A DNA stretch of 57,915 bases, taken from positions 1 to 57,915 of IMG/VR virus record IMGVR_UViG_3300008459_000050. One strand, written 5' to 3'. This DNA is from a virus. The first letter of the stretch is position 1, and every line of letters begins with the position of its first letter. The position numbers and the translations under genes were made by a program. Of the stretch, positions 856 to 10,908 are shown one piece after another. Under the pieces are notes generated by a model. It saw nothing but the letters and a program-made list of their open reading frames with translations, had not been told where the DNA came from and did not search any database.

Positions 856-1902
856 CTATTTCTTTATTATATCATTAAGTAGTCTATTTAGTCGATCTGC
901 TTTAGAAAAAATTTGTTCTTCTTTACGAATTTTTCCTTCACTCATCATAAATGCACCGGGGGTTGAAGGTTCTTGAACGAAATCAAAACAAATTAATTGA
1001 AAATCATCTTCAACAATTGTTCTACCACCCTCTTTACGAGTTGATCCAAGACCACGTGAAGAAATTCCTAGTTTAACACCTGATTGAACAAGTGAACGAA
1101 TAATATTTCCAGACGGGGTTGGTAGAACTTTGATTTTACCCATTAGAGAGTTACCATCCCACCATATTTTTGTTACCATGTGTGAGACGTTTTTTAAATT
1201 GACAACTGAATCGTCTGGGTGATCGCAATTTTTAGTCCAAGCAATTTTTCCATTTCTACGCATTAACCATGTTCCGTTTTGTACATTTACACAATATACT
1301 TTACCATCGTGCTGGACTTCTTCAATTTTAACAGTAGATAAACAAATATGTTCATAAGAATAATTAATTATTGTAATATTGCTGCGATCTAATTGTATAA
1401 ATTGTTTTGCATACATAGAAAATAATTGATTGTCGCCATCACACAGTAACATGTTGTGATTTGGTGTTAACATCATATCAATTTCTGGGCCGGTTATATT
1501 GTACATAATCCCATTATAATCAAGAACAATTTTTTTATTTATCGCTTGTACTTCAGTAGCTCTTGTTTCTTCATTAAGTGTGATAATTTTTTCATCATCT
1601 GATATATCTTTGATGAATTTCCATCCATCAGCAGTAAATATCTCAGTGTGTTCATCGACACATTCTCCTAGTGCACGATTTTCATTGACAATTTTTTCAT
1701 AATTCTTCATTTCTCTTTCAAGAATCTCTTTTGAGTAGACTCTACCATTACCATTTTCTTTATTGGCCTCTTGTAGCTTTCCAGTTACAATTAGACCGCC
1801 TTCTTTCATATATCGTTTATCTTCTTCTGTCAGAAGATCAACACAAACATTTCCTGGGCATATTTCATAAAATTCACTTAATAGTTGTTTGCTCATTTCC
1901 AT
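856..1902 (-). CDS. 21: Prohead maturation protease (T4 gp21-like) interrupted by a mini-intein
   Basis: The exteins (residues 1-80 and 226-348) form a T4 gp21-type prohead serine protease, which cleaves scaffold and capsid proteins during head maturation. Visible motifs are GGLIVTGKLQEANKENGNGR near the N-terminus, the catalytic His in DHPDD (His228), and the nucleophile region LGISSRGLGS (Ser281 or Ser282). A 145-aa intein splits the usual ALGE-xDHP motif, so the uncut precursor has its active site interrupted. The frame also opens at GTG 1908 and has another ATG at 1896; the start at 1902 is a compromise, as none has a clearly better ribosome site. A terminator-like hairpin lies just upstream. 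Family assignment is firm; start choice is not. Confidence 0.93.
   Translation of the reverse strand: MEMSKQLLSEFYEICPGNVCVDLLTEEDKRYMKEGGLIVTGKLQEANKENGNGRVYSKEILEREMKNYEKIVNENRALGECVDEHTEIFTADGWKFIKDISDDEKIITLNEETRATEVQAINKKIVLDYNGIMYNITGPEIDMMLTPNHNMLLCDGDNQLFSMYAKQFIQLDRSNITIINYSYEHICLSTVKIEEVQHDGKVYCVNVQNGTWLMRRNGKIAWTKNCDHPDDSVVNLKNVSHMVTKIWWDGNSLMGKIKVLPTPSGNIIRSLVQSGVKLGISSRGLGSTRKEGGRTIVEDDFQLICFDFVQEPSTPGAFMMSEGKIRKEEQIFSKADRLNRLLNDIIKK
1228..1662 (-). mobile_element. Mini-intein (145 aa, no endonuclease) in the prohead protease
   Basis: The insertion starts at Cys (block A, CVDEHTEIFTADGWKF) and ends WTKN, followed by Cys as the +1 extein residue. Block B is present (MMLTPNHNMLL), as is a block F/G region (KVYCVNVQNGTWLMRRNGK). 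There is no LAGLIDADG or HNH domain, so it cannot home by itself. The residue before the terminal Asn is Lys, not the usual His, a variation tolerated in some inteins. The flanks join as ...RALGE/CDHPDD, restoring the gp21 active-site motif with Cys where Leu is usual. Borders are defined to the codon by conserved splice residues; splicing activity itself is inferred. Confidence 0.92.
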
Positions 1903-2343: not shown

Positions 2344-2970
2344 TTAACCTTCACCTACTCCTGATACTTTTGAAGCTGGGAATTTAGAAACACCGGATTT
2401 ACGTTGTTTTTGGAATATATTTGGATTTTTTCTATATTGGCTATAATTTGAATAAATTTCTACATCTTCAAGATCGTTCATTAGATCAGTAAAGATGTTA
2501 AACAAACCTTTATAACCAAGAGTTGATGCATATTTTTTCATAATATTTTCATATTGTTTCTTGATTGGTTTTAAATCACTGATGGCCCTTGAGGCTGTTT
2601 TCATTACTGTTGATTCGCCTGGTTCTTCCATTGCTTTAATAGCAGCAGCAACTTCTTCTTCACTTGCTTTTTTATCTGACATTTCTTGACCGTATTTTTC
2701 CTTGGCTGCTTTAAACCCAGATCCAATACCGGCTTTTAATTTTGCTAGTGTTCCAGAGGCTTCACGGCTTGTCATTGCTTCTGGGTCTTCTACGTATTTT
2801 TCTTTAGCAGCCTTTTCAGCTTCCTCGCCAGCTTCCTTACCTCGTTTGAAACCGTATTTTAAACTTTTAGCTAATTCTTTCCAGCCTTCTTGTTGAAGAT
2901 CGGATTCCGTTAGTGTTTTTTCTAGTTCTTCCTTGATTATTTGTTGAACATAACCTTTTGTGACTTTCAT
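2344..2970 (-). CDS. Hypothetical prohead-region protein with amphipathic N-terminus
   Basis: A 208-aa Lys/Glu/Ala-rich, mostly helical protein beginning MKVTKGYVQQIIKEELEKTL. The longer frame from 2991 is rejected: the ATG at 2970 has GAGG 8 nt upstream and overlaps the TGA of the upstream homing-endonuclease gene as TTATGA. The N-terminal helix followed by Leu-Thr-Glu resembles T4 capsid-targeting sequences cut by gp21, and the gene sits in the prohead block, so an internal or core protein is plausible. No domain is recognised; the C-terminus is Gly/Ser/Lys-rich. Confidence 0.8.
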   Translation of the reverse strand: MKVTKGYVQQIIKEELEKTLTESDLQQEGWKELAKSLKYGFKRGKEAGEEAEKAAKEKYVEDPEAMTSREASGTLAKLKAGIGSGFKAAKEKYGQEMSDKKASEEEVAAAIKAMEEPGESTVMKTASRAISDLKPIKKQYENIMKKYASTLGYKGLFNIFTDLMNDLEDVEIYSNYSQYRKNPNIFQKQRKSGVSKFPASKVSGVGEG

Positions 2971-4055
2971 AAATTTTCCTCTACTATCCAAAGTTTATTT
3001 TTAATAATCTTTCTTACGGTTACTGGAGATAGATTATGGTTTTCTCCTATTTGTATATAGGCTTGTTCTTTACCAATTGTGTTAATTTTATTTTTAAAAT
3101 CTTCTCTAATCTGCTGGGCAATATCCATATTGATACGAACTGGTTTTTTATGTGGTTTTCTATTATCTATAATCCATTGTTTATATACTGGGTCTTCCCA
3201 AGTTTCATTACGAATAACTTTACCTACTCCAGAAACAGATAAACCATATTTTTGTGAGAGTTGCTCAAAATCATACTTATCTGTTTTATAGTCTTCACGT
3301 ATTTTTTGAACTGTTTCTAAATTGAGGATTTTGATACCTTGTTCTAGAATTTTTAAAGCAGGAAGTTCGTTGTAAAGTTTATCTTTCCATGTAATATTTT
3401 TTAACATATCACATATAGTTGATTTATTCATACCATATTTTTCTGATACATCTTTAACTGTAATAATTCCTTGACAAAATTCTTTGCGTATTTGTCTTAC
3501 TTGTTCCCAATTTAATTTGGCTAATGGGGCATTTTCACCTGAAAGAGATAAACTATTTTTTAATTTTTCTTCTTCAGTACACGGACGACCATAATGCCAA
3601 TGATTTACACCACTATGAGATTCCGAAATTCTTCTTTTGTGTTCATCAGTGAGATGTCTGCCCCAATTAGGATTGTTTGGACCAGTATTTAGTTCTCTTA
3701 GTTTTTGTTTTGTTTCTTCTGATACTGCAACACCTCTTCTTGTAGACTCTGCACACAATGATGTGTTAAATAATTTACCTGTTGGACCATATGTGTCAAA
3801 ATACCACTGTTCTCTTTCGTTTAATTGTTCTGGGTTGCAAGTTTCCACTAACAAAAACTCAAACTCAGATTCACCATATAAATTCCATGCGTTTTGTAAG
3901 TGAACACAATGATGTTTATTTTTTGAAACGTGTCTTAATTGTTTTTTATGATCAATAACTCTTTTGTTATAATCGCTTGTTTGACCATAATAACTTTTAT
4001 CATTTGCCTTACAATAGATCCTATAAATTCCACTGATTTTTTCTCTATTTTTCAT
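2967..4055 (-). CDS. Freestanding GIY-YIG homing endonuclease with NUMOD3 and helix-turn-helix repeats
   Basis: A 362-aa protein. The N-terminus carries the GIY-YIG nuclease: GIYRIYCKANDKSYYG, an Arg in the following helix (NKRVIDH) and a Glu in LNEREQWYFDTYG. Then come two or three NUMOD3-type DNA-binding motifs (for example NNPNWGRHLTDEHKRRISES). Three helix-turn-helix units follow, each of the form 'QIRxxF...KYGxxxxTVxxIIKNxxW'. Such SegF-like enzymes cut phage DNA to spread themselves or nearby elements. The ATG at 4055 is chosen over the longer TTG frame because AAGGAG lies 7 nt upstream. Its TGA overlaps the next gene's ATG, so it is inserted without breaking the operon. Confidence 0.93.
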   Translation of the reverse strand: MKNREKISGIYRIYCKANDKSYYGQTSDYNKRVIDHKKQLRHVSKNKHHCVHLQNAWNLYGESEFEFLLVETCNPEQLNEREQWYFDTYGPTGKLFNTSLCAESTRRGVAVSEETKQKLRELNTGPNNPNWGRHLTDEHKRRISESHSGVNHWHYGRPCTEEEKLKNSLSLSGENAPLAKLNWEQVRQIRKEFCQGIITVKDVSEKYGMNKSTICDMLKNITWKDKLYNELPALKILEQGIKILNLETVQKIREDYKTDKYDFEQLSQKYGLSVSGVGKVIRNETWEDPVYKQWIIDNRKPHKKPVRINMDIAQQIREDFKNKINTIGKEQAYIQIGENHNLSPVTVRKIIKNKLWIVEENL

Positions 4056-4132
4056 CACTTTACTCCTTTGCAAATATCATACTGTACTTGCCTTTGGTTG
4101 TAAAGTAAATAGTATAGTATATCGTTAAAAGC

Positions 4133-4657
4133 TTAATAATTATATCTATAAATTCCTCTAGTGGGAAACCCATATCGGTTGATACTACCTTTAAACTCCT
4201 CTTGTGGAACTTCACCAAGTTCAGTAGAATCTTCAACGCTTGGTTCTAGCAGAGCTTTTTCCATTTTTTCTTCAAATTCTTTTTCACTAGCAACAATTGG
4301 ACGTTCATCTTCAATAAAGTTTGCTAGATTCATGACAACAACTTGAAGAACATCTTCTCCACCGGGAGATTGTTGTGGATAAGCGCCCTGTAGTGATCCA
4401 TAAACATTTCCAGATGTTACAGAGTCTGGGAGTACAATACCACGCTTTACCATATAATTAAAAAGTTTCTCTTGTATATTATAAACTTGATCACTTTGAT
4501 CCTCTTTAGCCATTGCAAGGATTTTATATTTGCTTGGCATGACAACAATGTCAAGATCTGGGTGTTCTGTTAGCATATAATCTCCAGAGAGAGTTTTTTT
4601 GATCATTAACTCTTTTTGAAGACCGGTGGTTTTATCTTTGATGGTTATTTTTAACAT
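4133..4657 (-). CDS. Hypothetical protein of the prohead block
   Basis: A 174-aa protein beginning MLKITIKDKTTGLQKE. The N-terminal third is beta-rich, a Pro/Gly-rich part (GAYPQQSPGGED) lies in the middle, an acidic helical segment follows (EKEFEEKMEKALLEP), and the end is aromatic (GFPTRGIYRYNY). I recognise no family. It is flanked by the tRNA-Tyr-like element upstream and by the homing endonuclease downstream, so the 77 nt between its stop and the endonuclease start may hold the site where that element entered. A prohead or structural role is suggested only by location. Confidence 0.75.
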   Translation of the reverse strand: MLKITIKDKTTGLQKELMIKKTLSGDYMLTEHPDLDIVVMPSKYKILAMAKEDQSDQVYNIQEKLFNYMVKRGIVLPDSVTSGNVYGSLQGAYPQQSPGGEDVLQVVVMNLANFIEDERPIVASEKEFEEKMEKALLEPSVEDSTELGEVPQEEFKGSINRYGFPTRGIYRYNY

Positions 4658-4718
4658 TGTGTTACCTTAAAAGTTTGAATACTTTGTTGTCTTTGTTAAA
4701 TAGAAACACTTTTGATTC

Positions 4719-6848: not shown

Positions 6849-7661
6849 TTACTTTCCCACCTCGTGAACAAATTGTTGAATCTTTAGGATTTTCTGGAGC
6901 ATATCGTGATTAATGTCTTTTATATTCTTGAATGTCTCAAGGAAATCAAAAGTTTGCTTTGTTTTTTCTTTCATACTGTCATCACTTTTGATTTCTTCGC
7001 TCTCAAGACTCTTTAGGACATTTTCTTTTAATCTACCAATTTCTTCATTTAGATAAACTTTAAATTCAACAAGATTATCTGAGAAGGAGCTAACATATCT
7101 GTTTAATAGTTCTTTTTGTTCTGTTAATAAACTTCCATATCTTTCGTTGAATTTCTTGCTGAATGTTTTAAAAAGAACTGTATCAATAGTTTGTAGATTT
7201 TCTTTTTTGTTTTCATTTACAATCTTGATCTTGTCAAGGATAACTTTTTCTAGTAGGATTTTTTCTTTAACTTTTGTTGATGGGTTAAAGATTTGTGAAA
7301 TTGTTGCAAGGTCTTTATAGTTAGGAATAAATGTATTATAAACTTTTGTTCCTAGCTGTTTGTTAATTTTGTTAATAAGAACAGATTGCTCATTGAACAG
7401 GGCAGTTTTATTTAAATTATTATAACGACGCTCAACTTCTCTTAGATATCGTTCAGCGTGTTCTTCTTCGACTGAGCGGTCGTTTAATGAACGATATAAT
7501 TCTAGTTCCTTGTTCATTTCACATTTTGGATTGAAATGCTGGAATATCAGGTCACGAACAATCTTTGCTTTGTTTAAATCTTTTTGAAGAGCCGCACGTG
7601 TTCCTTCACGTAGGAGAACTTCATAAAGAAACGCGGTATTTCGTTTCTTATTGTGATTCAT
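6849..7661 (-). CDS. Hypothetical helical protein following the portal gene
   Basis: A 270-aa protein rich in Lys, Glu, Asn and Leu that looks entirely helical with coiled-coil stretches (for example ESEEIKSDDSMKEKTKQTFD near the C-terminus). It begins MNHNKKRNTAFLYEVLLREG. It overlaps the portal gene's 3' end by 14 nt, indicating coupled translation. In T4, small core proteins gp67 and gp68 lie between portal and protease, so a head-core role is reasonable by position. There is no sequence resemblance I can point to. Confidence 0.8.
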   Translation of the reverse strand: MNHNKKRNTAFLYEVLLREGTRAALQKDLNKAKIVRDLIFQHFNPKCEMNKELELYRSLNDRSVEEEHAERYLREVERRYNNLNKTALFNEQSVLINKINKQLGTKVYNTFIPNYKDLATISQIFNPSTKVKEKILLEKVILDKIKIVNENKKENLQTIDTVLFKTFSKKFNERYGSLLTEQKELLNRYVSSFSDNLVEFKVYLNEEIGRLKENVLKSLESEEIKSDDSMKEKTKQTFDFLETFKNIKDINHDMLQKILKIQQFVHEVGK

Positions 7662-10600
7662 TTTCTACTTCCTCGTTAACTAATTGCTTCTTTTTGTTGC
7701 TAAAGTATTTATCCATGCTATCTAGCTTACTTTGGACTTCAATAAGTAGTTTCTCGTCATCTTCAAATACATTATTTTCAATATTCTCTGGTAGGATTCC
7801 AGAAGCAATTGTTCCAAATCCACTCTTCTTAAATGAATTACCGAGTTTGCTTGTCATGTTGCTACCAAATTTTGCAGCTATACTGCGTGTTCTAGCACCA
7901 CCTGAATTATTTGATGTATTAACTGGTGTATACCATTTACCACGTGCGCCACTTGTTAAGTGTGGCTTCTTTGTTGAAAAGATATCTTCACGACGTGCTG
8001 GAGCAGCTAATAAGGGATTTCCTGGTTCACCGGCTGGTGGAGGCGCTTCTTTCTCACCACCGCCTGTCTCTGGTGCTTCTGGAGTCTCTGGCGCTCCTGT
8101 AGGTGATTCACTACCACCTAGACCACCTCCCAGACTTGAGCCACCGCTGCCTCCACCTTCTGCACCAGCACCTTCAGGTGAAATAGCTTCAAGATTCTTG
8201 GTGAATCCGGCATCATAGAAAAGATCTCGTTGAATACGCAGGAATTCATGATCAGCCATCTTAAAGATATTTTCATATATCCAACGTTTGCTGAAACCTT
8301 GTTCCTTAGCAGACCCAGCGACATCTAATTGAGCTTTAAAGTGTTCTATTTCTTGTAGTTCCGCTAGACGAGATGGATTGTTTAGTTTTAATGAAAATTT
8401 AACAAGATCTTCATTACGGAATCCAAGAGTATAAAGATGAATCATACCAATTTTTGTTAGTTCATCAACAAGTGAATTTTGCAATCTCTGAATAGTTGTT
8501 GCAAATCTCATATCCTTTTGAGCTAACATTGTTTTATCTTCAGCCGCACCTTCTCCTCTTGCTAGATATGCTTGAGGGATCTTAAGGGCTGATAATAGTT
8601 TATCACGTAGGTATTTAACGTCTTCAATTGCACTTGTAAATTGACCACCGGGGAGTGTTTCAATTTTTGTTCCACTGCCTTGTCCACGTACCGGGAGATA
8701 GTAGTCTTCTTCCACTGACATCGGGTTATAACGTAAGTCAACACGACCAGTTTGTGGATCAACGATTTGATTACGTTTCATCTGAGTGATGATTTTTTGC
8801 ATATATTGTTCAACATCATTTGGAGAAATGTTACCAACATCTACATAAAACACTCTTCGCTCAGGACTTCTAACGATACGATAGGACATCATCGCATCTT
8901 CCATTAAACAATTGTGTGCTACTACTCCATTTACTATAAAATTATGATGCTCACTTTCTACTTGAATATCAAAAGTTTCTTCATTTTCTTTTTCTAGTGA
9001 AAATGAAAGAATGCGCTCATGACATACATTATCTTGCCAAGATTCTTTATTCATATTTATGTACATTCTATATGATGCAAAACGATGTACATTTTCACTA
9101 TCTATTCTCTCTGGGCGATCTAAAATAATATCATTGCAAGGTATACCACATGTATAAGCAAGTTCTTGAATTCCTTTTAGTAAATCAAAACTTATAGATG
9201 TAGCTCTTCCGTCTTTTTTACCACCATCTGCATCAAAATAACCTTGAATAAACGATCTGCGCGCTTCAACTGACATTTCAAATATCCAAGAAGGAACATT
9301 TTTATTTAATGCGCCTGTTGAAAATTCTAAAGTTTCCATTAAATCTTTAAATTCAACAGAACAAATTTCATATTTTCCACCCGAAATGCCTTTTTTGGGT
9401 TCTGAATATATTAGGGCAGAGTTACTATATTTTTCTAATAAATTTTTATAATATTCGTTTAATTTTTCATCAACCCCAGTTGCGAAACCTGCACCCTTAT
9501 TGGTTAACCATCCGTCTCCCAGCATAAAACCAAAAAATTTAGCAAATTCTGAATCTAATGTAAAGCACATAGTCTTATCAAGAATAGATTTTTTTGGACT
9601 TTTTTTAGCTAAAAATTCTACATTTGATTCACTGATGTTAAATTTATCCTTTACGAGCAAATAATCATTGTATGGAATACGTTTTTTTGCATTTAAAAAA
9701 GCATGTATATTTTTTGATGAATATGTACAATTACATTCATCAATTTTTTCCATTATTTTATTTGATTCATAATCTGTTTTTTCTTTTAAAATTACATAAT
9801 AATTTTCTTTATCTAATTCAACAGTATGTGTTGAGTTGCCACCATCAATAAATGGAAGAACTAATACATCTTTTCCTATTTGTAAATCTTTTGCTTCTTT
9901 GTAAATATATTTTCCATCAGAAAAAACTAACATTCTGTGATTATCAGTAACACTGACTGATCTATGACTTGTTTTTAATTTAAAAACATCTTTTTTACCC
10001 ATATATTTTTGAGCAACCACTTTTGTTTTTTCTTGTTTTTTAGTTATAGGATTCCAGCAAAAAATAATGTCATCTTTATTGATATTTTCAATATTTTTTG
10101 GACCATTAATTGTTAATATTTTTTCTCCTTTGGCTATACAAAGTTGACGCCATATACGTCTAGCAGGCTCTAGAACAGAAGTACCATATGGAGCATATTT
10201 ATCTTGACCTAGGATACGAAAATGAGCAATTTGCCAGTTCTCAAATGTTAATCCAGCACTATTCCACTGAAATTGAACATAGTTTGGATTGCTTTCGTCT
10301 TGTCCTTCAAGTCTTTCAACCTCAGAAGTTGGTAGACCAAGAACACTTTTGATACCAAGTTGTTCATCTATGTCAAGATATAGAAAAAAATCTCCAAACT
10401 TGACCATTGTACGACACCAACTATATAAATTTTGTTTAACATTGAGTGTTTTATAGAATAAATTATTTAAAACTGTTTTAATTTCATCATTTTTACAGTC
10501 AATTGTTAGGATTGGTCTAAATTGATTGCTAGTCGTCATGGATTCTGCGTAGATATCCATAGCGGCTGCTACCTCCCCTGTAAACTCCATTTGATCGAAG

Positions 10601-10908
10601 TCTGAATATCTTTCAGCACGGCTTTGATTAGCCATAATATTGCTTTGAATGGCTTCAAAAGGGTTATAACTTTTCTTTTTAAATGATTTTCCACCAGCCG
10701 ATGTGAACTTAAAACGATCCAAATCACGACGACGAAAACGAATCTGTGATTGTTGTTTATATGAAGATAATGGACCAGAGAAAAGTCTGGTCAATGCAGT
10801 GTAAAGAGGAGTTTCTTGATTCTTTGGATTTTTCTGTGAGATATCAGAATTTCTATTTACTGTGTTTCTTCGTAGATCGTTATTGTTTGGACCGCTATTG
10901 CTGCTCAT
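7648..10908 (-). CDS. 20: Portal protein (T4 gp20-like) with an in-frame LAGLIDADG intein
   Basis: Exteins are residues 1-256 and 667-1086 (676 aa after splicing, slightly longer than T4 gp20). Portal hallmarks include the segment from FDQMEFTGEVAAAMDIYAES (104-123), WCRTMVKFGDFFLYLD, the join WRQL/CLMEDAMMSYRIVRSPERRVFYVD, and KIPQAYLARGEGAAEDKTML. The dodecameric portal sits at one capsid vertex and is the gate for DNA packaging. The C-terminal part has a Gly/Ser/Pro-rich linker. It lies directly downstream of the terminase gene (6 nt apart), as expected for a packaging module. The spliced sequence reads smoothly across the junction. Confidence 0.95.
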   Translation of the reverse strand: MSSNSGPNNNDLRRNTVNRNSDISQKNPKNQETPLYTALTRLFSGPLSSYKQQSQIRFRRRDLDRFKFTSAGGKSFKKKSYNPFEAIQSNIMANQSRAERYSDFDQMEFTGEVAAAMDIYAESMTTSNQFRPILTIDCKNDEIKTVLNNLFYKTLNVKQNLYSWCRTMVKFGDFFLYLDIDEQLGIKSVLGLPTSEVERLEGQDESNPNYVQFQWNSAGLTFENWQIAHFRILGQDKYAPYGTSVLEPARRIWRQLCIAKGEKILTINGPKNIENINKDDIIFCWNPITKKQEKTKVVAQKYMGKKDVFKLKTSHRSVSVTDNHRMLVFSDGKYIYKEAKDLQIGKDVLVLPFIDGGNSTHTVELDKENYYVILKEKTDYESNKIMEKIDECNCTYSSKNIHAFLNAKKRIPYNDYLLVKDKFNISESNVEFLAKKSPKKSILDKTMCFTLDSEFAKFFGFMLGDGWLTNKGAGFATGVDEKLNEYYKNLLEKYSNSALIYSEPKKGISGGKYEICSVEFKDLMETLEFSTGALNKNVPSWIFEMSVEARRSFIQGYFDADGGKKDGRATSISFDLLKGIQELAYTCGIPCNDIILDRPERIDSENVHRFASYRMYINMNKESWQDNVCHERILSFSLEKENEETFDIQVESEHHNFIVNGVVAHNCLMEDAMMSYRIVRSPERRVFYVDVGNISPNDVEQYMQKIITQMKRNQIVDPQTGRVDLRYNPMSVEEDYYLPVRGQGSGTKIETLPGGQFTSAIEDVKYLRDKLLSALKIPQAYLARGEGAAEDKTMLAQKDMRFATTIQRLQNSLVDELTKIGMIHLYTLGFRNEDLVKFSLKLNNPSRLAELQEIEHFKAQLDVAGSAKEQGFSKRWIYENIFKMADHEFLRIQRDLFYDAGFTKNLEAISPEGAGAEGGGSGGSSLGGGLGGSESPTGAPETPEAPETGGGEKEAPPPAGEPGNPLLAAPARREDIFSTKKPHLTSGARGKWYTPVNTSNNSGGARTRSIAAKFGSNMTSKLGNSFKKSGFGTIASGILPENIENNVFEDDEKLLIEVQSKLDSMDKYFSNKKKQLVNEEVENESQ
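8911..10140 (-). mobile_element. Full-length intein with LAGLIDADG homing endonuclease in the portal gene
   Basis: A 410-aa intein, residues 257-666 of the portal precursor. Block A starts at Cys257 (CIAKGEKILTINGPKNIE) and block B is VSVTDNHRMLV. The two LAGLIDADG helices are FFGFMLGDGWL (about 459-469) and FIQGYFDADGG (about 553-563). The C-terminal blocks are FDIQVESEHHNFIVNG and VVAHN, followed by Cys667. All canonical splice residues are present (Cys1, block B Thr/His, penultimate His, terminal Asn, +1 Cys), so both splicing and homing are probably active. The site is the conserved portal segment WRQL-CLMEDAMM. Confidence 0.96.

Follow-up and report, generated by a model that had tools for sequence, protein, structure and literature searches.

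A mini-intein predicted beside the catalytic histidine of a gp21-type prohead protease, and its allelic relatives in other phages

The gene for the gp21-type prohead protease in the viral DNA analysed here is interrupted just before the codon for its catalytic histidine by an insert that motifs, predicted fold and empty alleles identify as a mini-intein. Very likely, this is a selfish element of an allelic intein family at this site (site A) whose LAGLIDADG domain has been deleted; it is predicted to splice, most likely constitutively, and to be close to neutral for the phage. The prohead protease is essential and acts once, and its premature firing must be avoided. A family that re-inserts within four residues of the catalytic histidine provides paired natural alleles (empty, full-length and mini), from which it could be learned whether active-site inteins are simply difficult to get rid of, guard against the endonucleases of competitors, or act as a gate on activation.

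Results

The window, by which we mean the whole stretch of 57,915 nucleotides (IMG/VR virus record IMGVR_UViG_3300008459_000050, positions 1 to 57,915), contains the following features, all on the minus strand:

859..1896, gp21-type prohead (head maturation) protease precursor, 346 aa including the intein; alternative GTG start at 1908
1663..1896, N-extein, 78 aa, with the C-terminal end RALGE
1228..1662, predicted mini-intein, 145 aa, Cys1 ... Lys144-Asn145, HINT fold, without endonuclease
859..1227, C-extein, starting C-D-H226-P and containing the catalytic Ser279 (GISSRG)
1219..1221, codon for the catalytic His226 (equivalent to T4 gp21 His85)
2967..4073, gene for a free-standing homing endonuclease (GIY-YIG/NUMOD3) within the head-gene cluster, near gp21 (profile search)
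8908-10140, full-length LAGLIDADG intein in the gp20 portal protein (about aa 257-667), inside the ORF 7648-10908

The interrupted precursor (P0001), of the T4 gp21 (S77) type, matched the profiles Peptidase_S77 (E 1.2e-23) and PHROG 207, head maturation protease (E 1.1e-46). A preliminary description of this DNA had placed a 145-aa insert at 1228-1662, between ALGE and CDHPDD, and these coordinates proved exact: the intein comprises residues 79-223 and reads CVDEHTEIF...LTPNHNM...VYCVNV...WTKN, followed by C-DHP.

When the protease was aligned with the T4 structure (PDB 5JBL), DHP of the window fell opposite “NAP” and GISSRG opposite “GVASRG”. The T4 genome codes for His85 (ALGELNHP) and Ser140 (GVSSRG) at the positions altered in 5JBL, in which His85 is Ala. 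5JBL is thus a double mutant, and His226 and Ser279, which align with T4 gp21 His85 and Ser140 and are invariant among the relatives, are the catalytic pair of the window protease. (The triad of T4 gp21 is His-Ser-Asp [PMC5694885].) His226 is residue 3 of the C-extein, and the alignment upholds the earlier assignment of this residue as the catalytic histidine. In T4 numbering, site A is located between positions 82 and 83, and a second site, B, between 87 and 88.

Homologous loci that are empty at the insertion site numbered 79, and E82, D84 and H85 were invariant in all of them. The preliminary description had suggested an alignment with intein-less relatives; in these 79 loci, the catalytic motif is uninterrupted. 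It had also given ALGE-L-DHP as the usual motif. Leu is indeed commoner at this position, but Cys is a natural allele, ECDHP being present in 16 of the 79. Within the Leu clade that contains the window (54 rows), Cys+1 is confined to the two intein carriers, the window and L002, and every empty protease has Leu.

The insert alone scored E 4.5e-6 against Pfam Intein_splicing and E 0.003 against TIGR01445, both below the curated cut-offs, and its identity was therefore tested by other routes, namely family and structure. An AF2 model of the insert was confident (pLDDT 87, pTM 0.83), and its best match among solved structures was 6zgq (E 1.4e-10, TM 0.87); at E ≤ 0.001 it matched 45 solved structures in total, most of them inteins or related HINT domains. 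The confident model and its match to solved inteins settle the insert as an intein. Splicing blocks A, B, F and G are present in the in-frame insert, and the splicing residues Cys1, Thr66, His69, Cys124, Thr143, Asn145 and Cys+1 are intact. Profile search and alignment revealed no LAGLIDADG motif or homing endonuclease domain in the 145 residues. Motifs, HINT fold and empty alleles thus agree with the original assignment as an intein without endonuclease, having class-1-type Cys1...Asn/Cys junctions, and we regard 1228-1662 as a mini-intein (a HINT element) inside the prohead protease, for which splicing is predicted from sequence and model. Amino acid change is suppressed relative to the L002 intein (pN 0.27 versus pS 0.77), although synonymous sites are saturated and selection on the intein is therefore poorly measurable.

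A junction pattern scan combined with homology scans yielded a related intein family of 15 members within the same host protein. Site A is occupied in the window, L002, L013, L103 (= L109, L111), L104, L105, L106, L107, L108 and L110. At least seven further phage lineages have full-length LAGLIDADG inteins at this site (L002, L103, L105-L108 and L110); L104 is partial. L013 is a second, independent mini-intein and the sole other site-A relative without LAGLIDADG. Site B lies four residues further downstream, following DHP[D/E] or similar; it is under-sampled and is used by at least L009, L010, L088, L094, L095 and L096, including the huge phage LR756508 (L009) and Desulfovibrio phage PV062637 (L010). 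On the intein tree, the two sets fall on opposite sides of one branch. No description of an intein in a gp21-type prohead protease was found in the open-access literature searched, and intein lists are not known to contain one. An allelic intein family in this essential capsid protease is thus apparently undescribed, though of a known kind.

Several other sequences came up in these scans. At about 10110 in L111, a gp21 intein that otherwise resembles that of L103 has a one-base frameshift in its endonuclease part, reflecting either sequencing error or decay. Related inteins are present in what appear, as judged by eye, to be a MuF-like head protein (L097/L098), a DNA methyltransferase (L099) and a terminase large subunit (L100). 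The only match among bacterial genomes, L112, was out of frame and was discarded as a chance match. In L101 (6237-9266) and L105 (2859-6077), the portal genes carry HNH-containing inteins, which lie at another site than the window's portal intein, and the portal ORF of L111 (3188-8152, 1654 aa) has three Intein_splicing stretches. Both carriers of a gp21 mini-intein also have a portal intein, but portal inteins occur as well at some loci whose gp21 is empty or has a full-length intein; we therefore rejected a link between the two. L002 has a GIY-YIG gene at 4054-4713, directly upstream of gp21, which is 32% identical to that of the window.

The distribution of the site-A inteins is patchy. On the extein tree, the nine carriers require at least seven gains or losses, and the nearest kin of the window (L003, L004 and L014) are empty. 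The inteins of L106 and L107 are sisters (100/98) although their exteins lie apart, with dN of 0.10 for the inteins versus 0.16 for the exteins, a conflict of the kind that homing is expected to leave. The window intein is sister to the full-length intein of L002 (100/98), which makes it a deletion derivative, and the mini-intein of L013 is sister to the full-length intein of L105 (97/91). The endonuclease was thus lost twice, independently. In the 30 nt 5' of the site, the window is 0.77 identical to L002 versus 0.57 to its closest kin, a weak hint of co-conversion in the nucleotide sequence. The confinement of Cys+1 to the carriers in the Leu clade would fit acquisition from a Cys-type donor with co-conversion.

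As previously noted, the penultimate residue of the window intein is Lys and not His, and its blocks F and G contain no His. Full-length L002 likewise has Lys. Across the family, the residue before the terminal Asn is Gly in 13/15 members, Lys in 2/15 (window and L002) and His in none. The idea that Lys slows splicing was not upheld: Lys came down from a full-length ancestor, His is found in none of the relatives, and the AceL NrdHF intein, which lacks both assisting histidines, splices with excellent yield in a few minutes (PMC7891396). Lys is thus no evidence of slow splicing, although a residue rarer than Gly may go with some difference in rate. Mycobacteriophage inteins with penultimate Gly, Lys or Ser are known, and introduction of His into one of them, the RDF intein (Gly), made it slower (PMC5050341).

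Position 1 is Cys in the window and in all aligned relatives, as in class 1, which has Cys or Ser there; class 3, with no nucleophile at this position, is thereby ruled out. Of the W-C-T triplet of class 3 (B:12, F:4, G:5), the window has two of three (Met71, Cys124, Thr143). Beside Cys1, the window intein and all its relatives have Cys at F:4, and nearly all have Thr at G:5. The window intein is thus class 1, and the class-3-like Cys-Thr pair is an oddity rather than a sign of membership.

Discussion

The selfish-family explanation that we favour is as follows. Site-A inteins would home into the codons around the catalytic histidine of gp21 prohead proteases in T4-like environmental phages. 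In the window lineage, the LAGLIDADG domain would have been deleted, leaving the HINT splicing domain alone, which most likely excises itself constitutively, soon after translation, to give ...RALGE-CDHP.... This junction is natural in intein-free proteases, and the intein should therefore be near neutral for the phage. Inteins favour conserved sites, from which they are hard to lose (PMC2814812); the mini-intein presumably persists because imprecise loss would wreck an essential active site.

The mini-intein may also keep full-length relatives carried by co-infecting phages from cutting the site. The stronger claim, that mini-alleles are favoured in mixed infections because the insert destroys the target of site-A endonucleases, is a possibility that we hold tentatively, and it is compatible with the selfish-family explanation. 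Full-length site-A alleles are widespread among related phages, mini-alleles arose twice independently, and interference competition caused by a phage homing endonuclease has been documented (PMC11620839). However, the target is putative, and it may not include the Leu-type site found in the window's kin. Moreover, any insertion protects as a by-product, which does not in itself demonstrate selection.

The preliminary description further proposed that the unspliced protein should be an inactive zymogen and that splicing could time capsid maturation. The first part is reasonable. A whole-precursor AF2 model (pLDDT 69, weak) matched both 6zgq and 5JBL; its intein part folds, while residues 225-236, including His226, have pLDDT below 50, and the model suggests that the precursor is probably inactive. 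Inactivity before splicing is, however, expected of most active-site inteins and is thus no sign of regulation. The second part, in which unspliced gp21 would enter the prohead core inactive and await splicing, we consider very unlikely. The insertion does part ALGE from the catalytic histidine, whose segment is disordered in the model, a mini-intein is retained at site A in two separate lineages, and other inteins are known to splice conditionally (PMC6195587). Against this, the closest relatives lack the intein and presumably mature their heads without it, the element derives by deletion from a patchily distributed homing family with full-length selfish copies allelic at the same site, the Lys is inherited, and the structurally nearest intein splices in minutes without both histidines. 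Conserved and catalytic sites are also usual for inteins and do not imply regulation (PMC2814812). We give equally little credence to a tamed intein, retained after endonuclease loss because the pace of splicing holds back protease activation until proheads assemble; if true, it would represent a natural intein-gated zymogen for capsid maturation.

It is similarly improbable that the mini-intein is mobilised in trans by the GIY-YIG endonuclease at 2967-4073 through cleavage of the empty gp21 site. Among the loci searched, homologous GIY-YIG genes near gp21 occur only in the window and L002, and group I introns offer a precedent for collaborative homing (mentioned in PMC2814812). Nevertheless, the two genes are only 32% identical and lie in different intergenic places, L002 carries its own LAGLIDADG, no GIY-YIG homologue was found near the mini-intein of L013, and such genes are frequent in the head clusters of T4 (segD). 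The GIY-YIG/NUMOD3 gene is probably an independent element. Least likely of all is that the phage genome is dead and the insert a degenerate one that does not splice: the Pfam score is under the gathering cut-off and splicing is a prediction, but the frame is open, all nucleophiles are there, the HINT model is confident and the amino acid sequence is constrained.

Comparison with known inteins

The full-length site-A gp21 inteins (L002, L103, L105-L108 and L110) share the insertion point of the window intein and have a homologous splicing domain, and L002 shares TKN/CDHP with it. They differ in retaining LAGLIDADG (353-356 aa), and mostly have penultimate Gly. The site-B inteins (L009, L010, L088 and L094-L096) are related and reside in the same host protein and catalytic motif, but four residues downstream and with Ser at +1. 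The mycobacteriophage class 1 inteins (PMC5050341) resemble that of the window in their phage origin, active-centre insertion and penultimate Gly, Lys or Ser, but are found in host proteins other than gp21. The closest solved fold (TM 0.87), and the best single-protein sequence match, is the AceL NrdHF class 3 split intein (PDB 6zgq; PMC7891396), with which the window intein has in common the Met-Cys-Thr triplet, the Cys at 124 and the lack of a penultimate or block-F His. The gp21 intein is contiguous, with Cys1, whereas AceL NrdHF is a split intein with Ala1 in which Cys124 serves as the first nucleophile. The combination of Cys1 with Met-Cys-Thr in the gp21 intein may bear on the origin of class 3 inteins.
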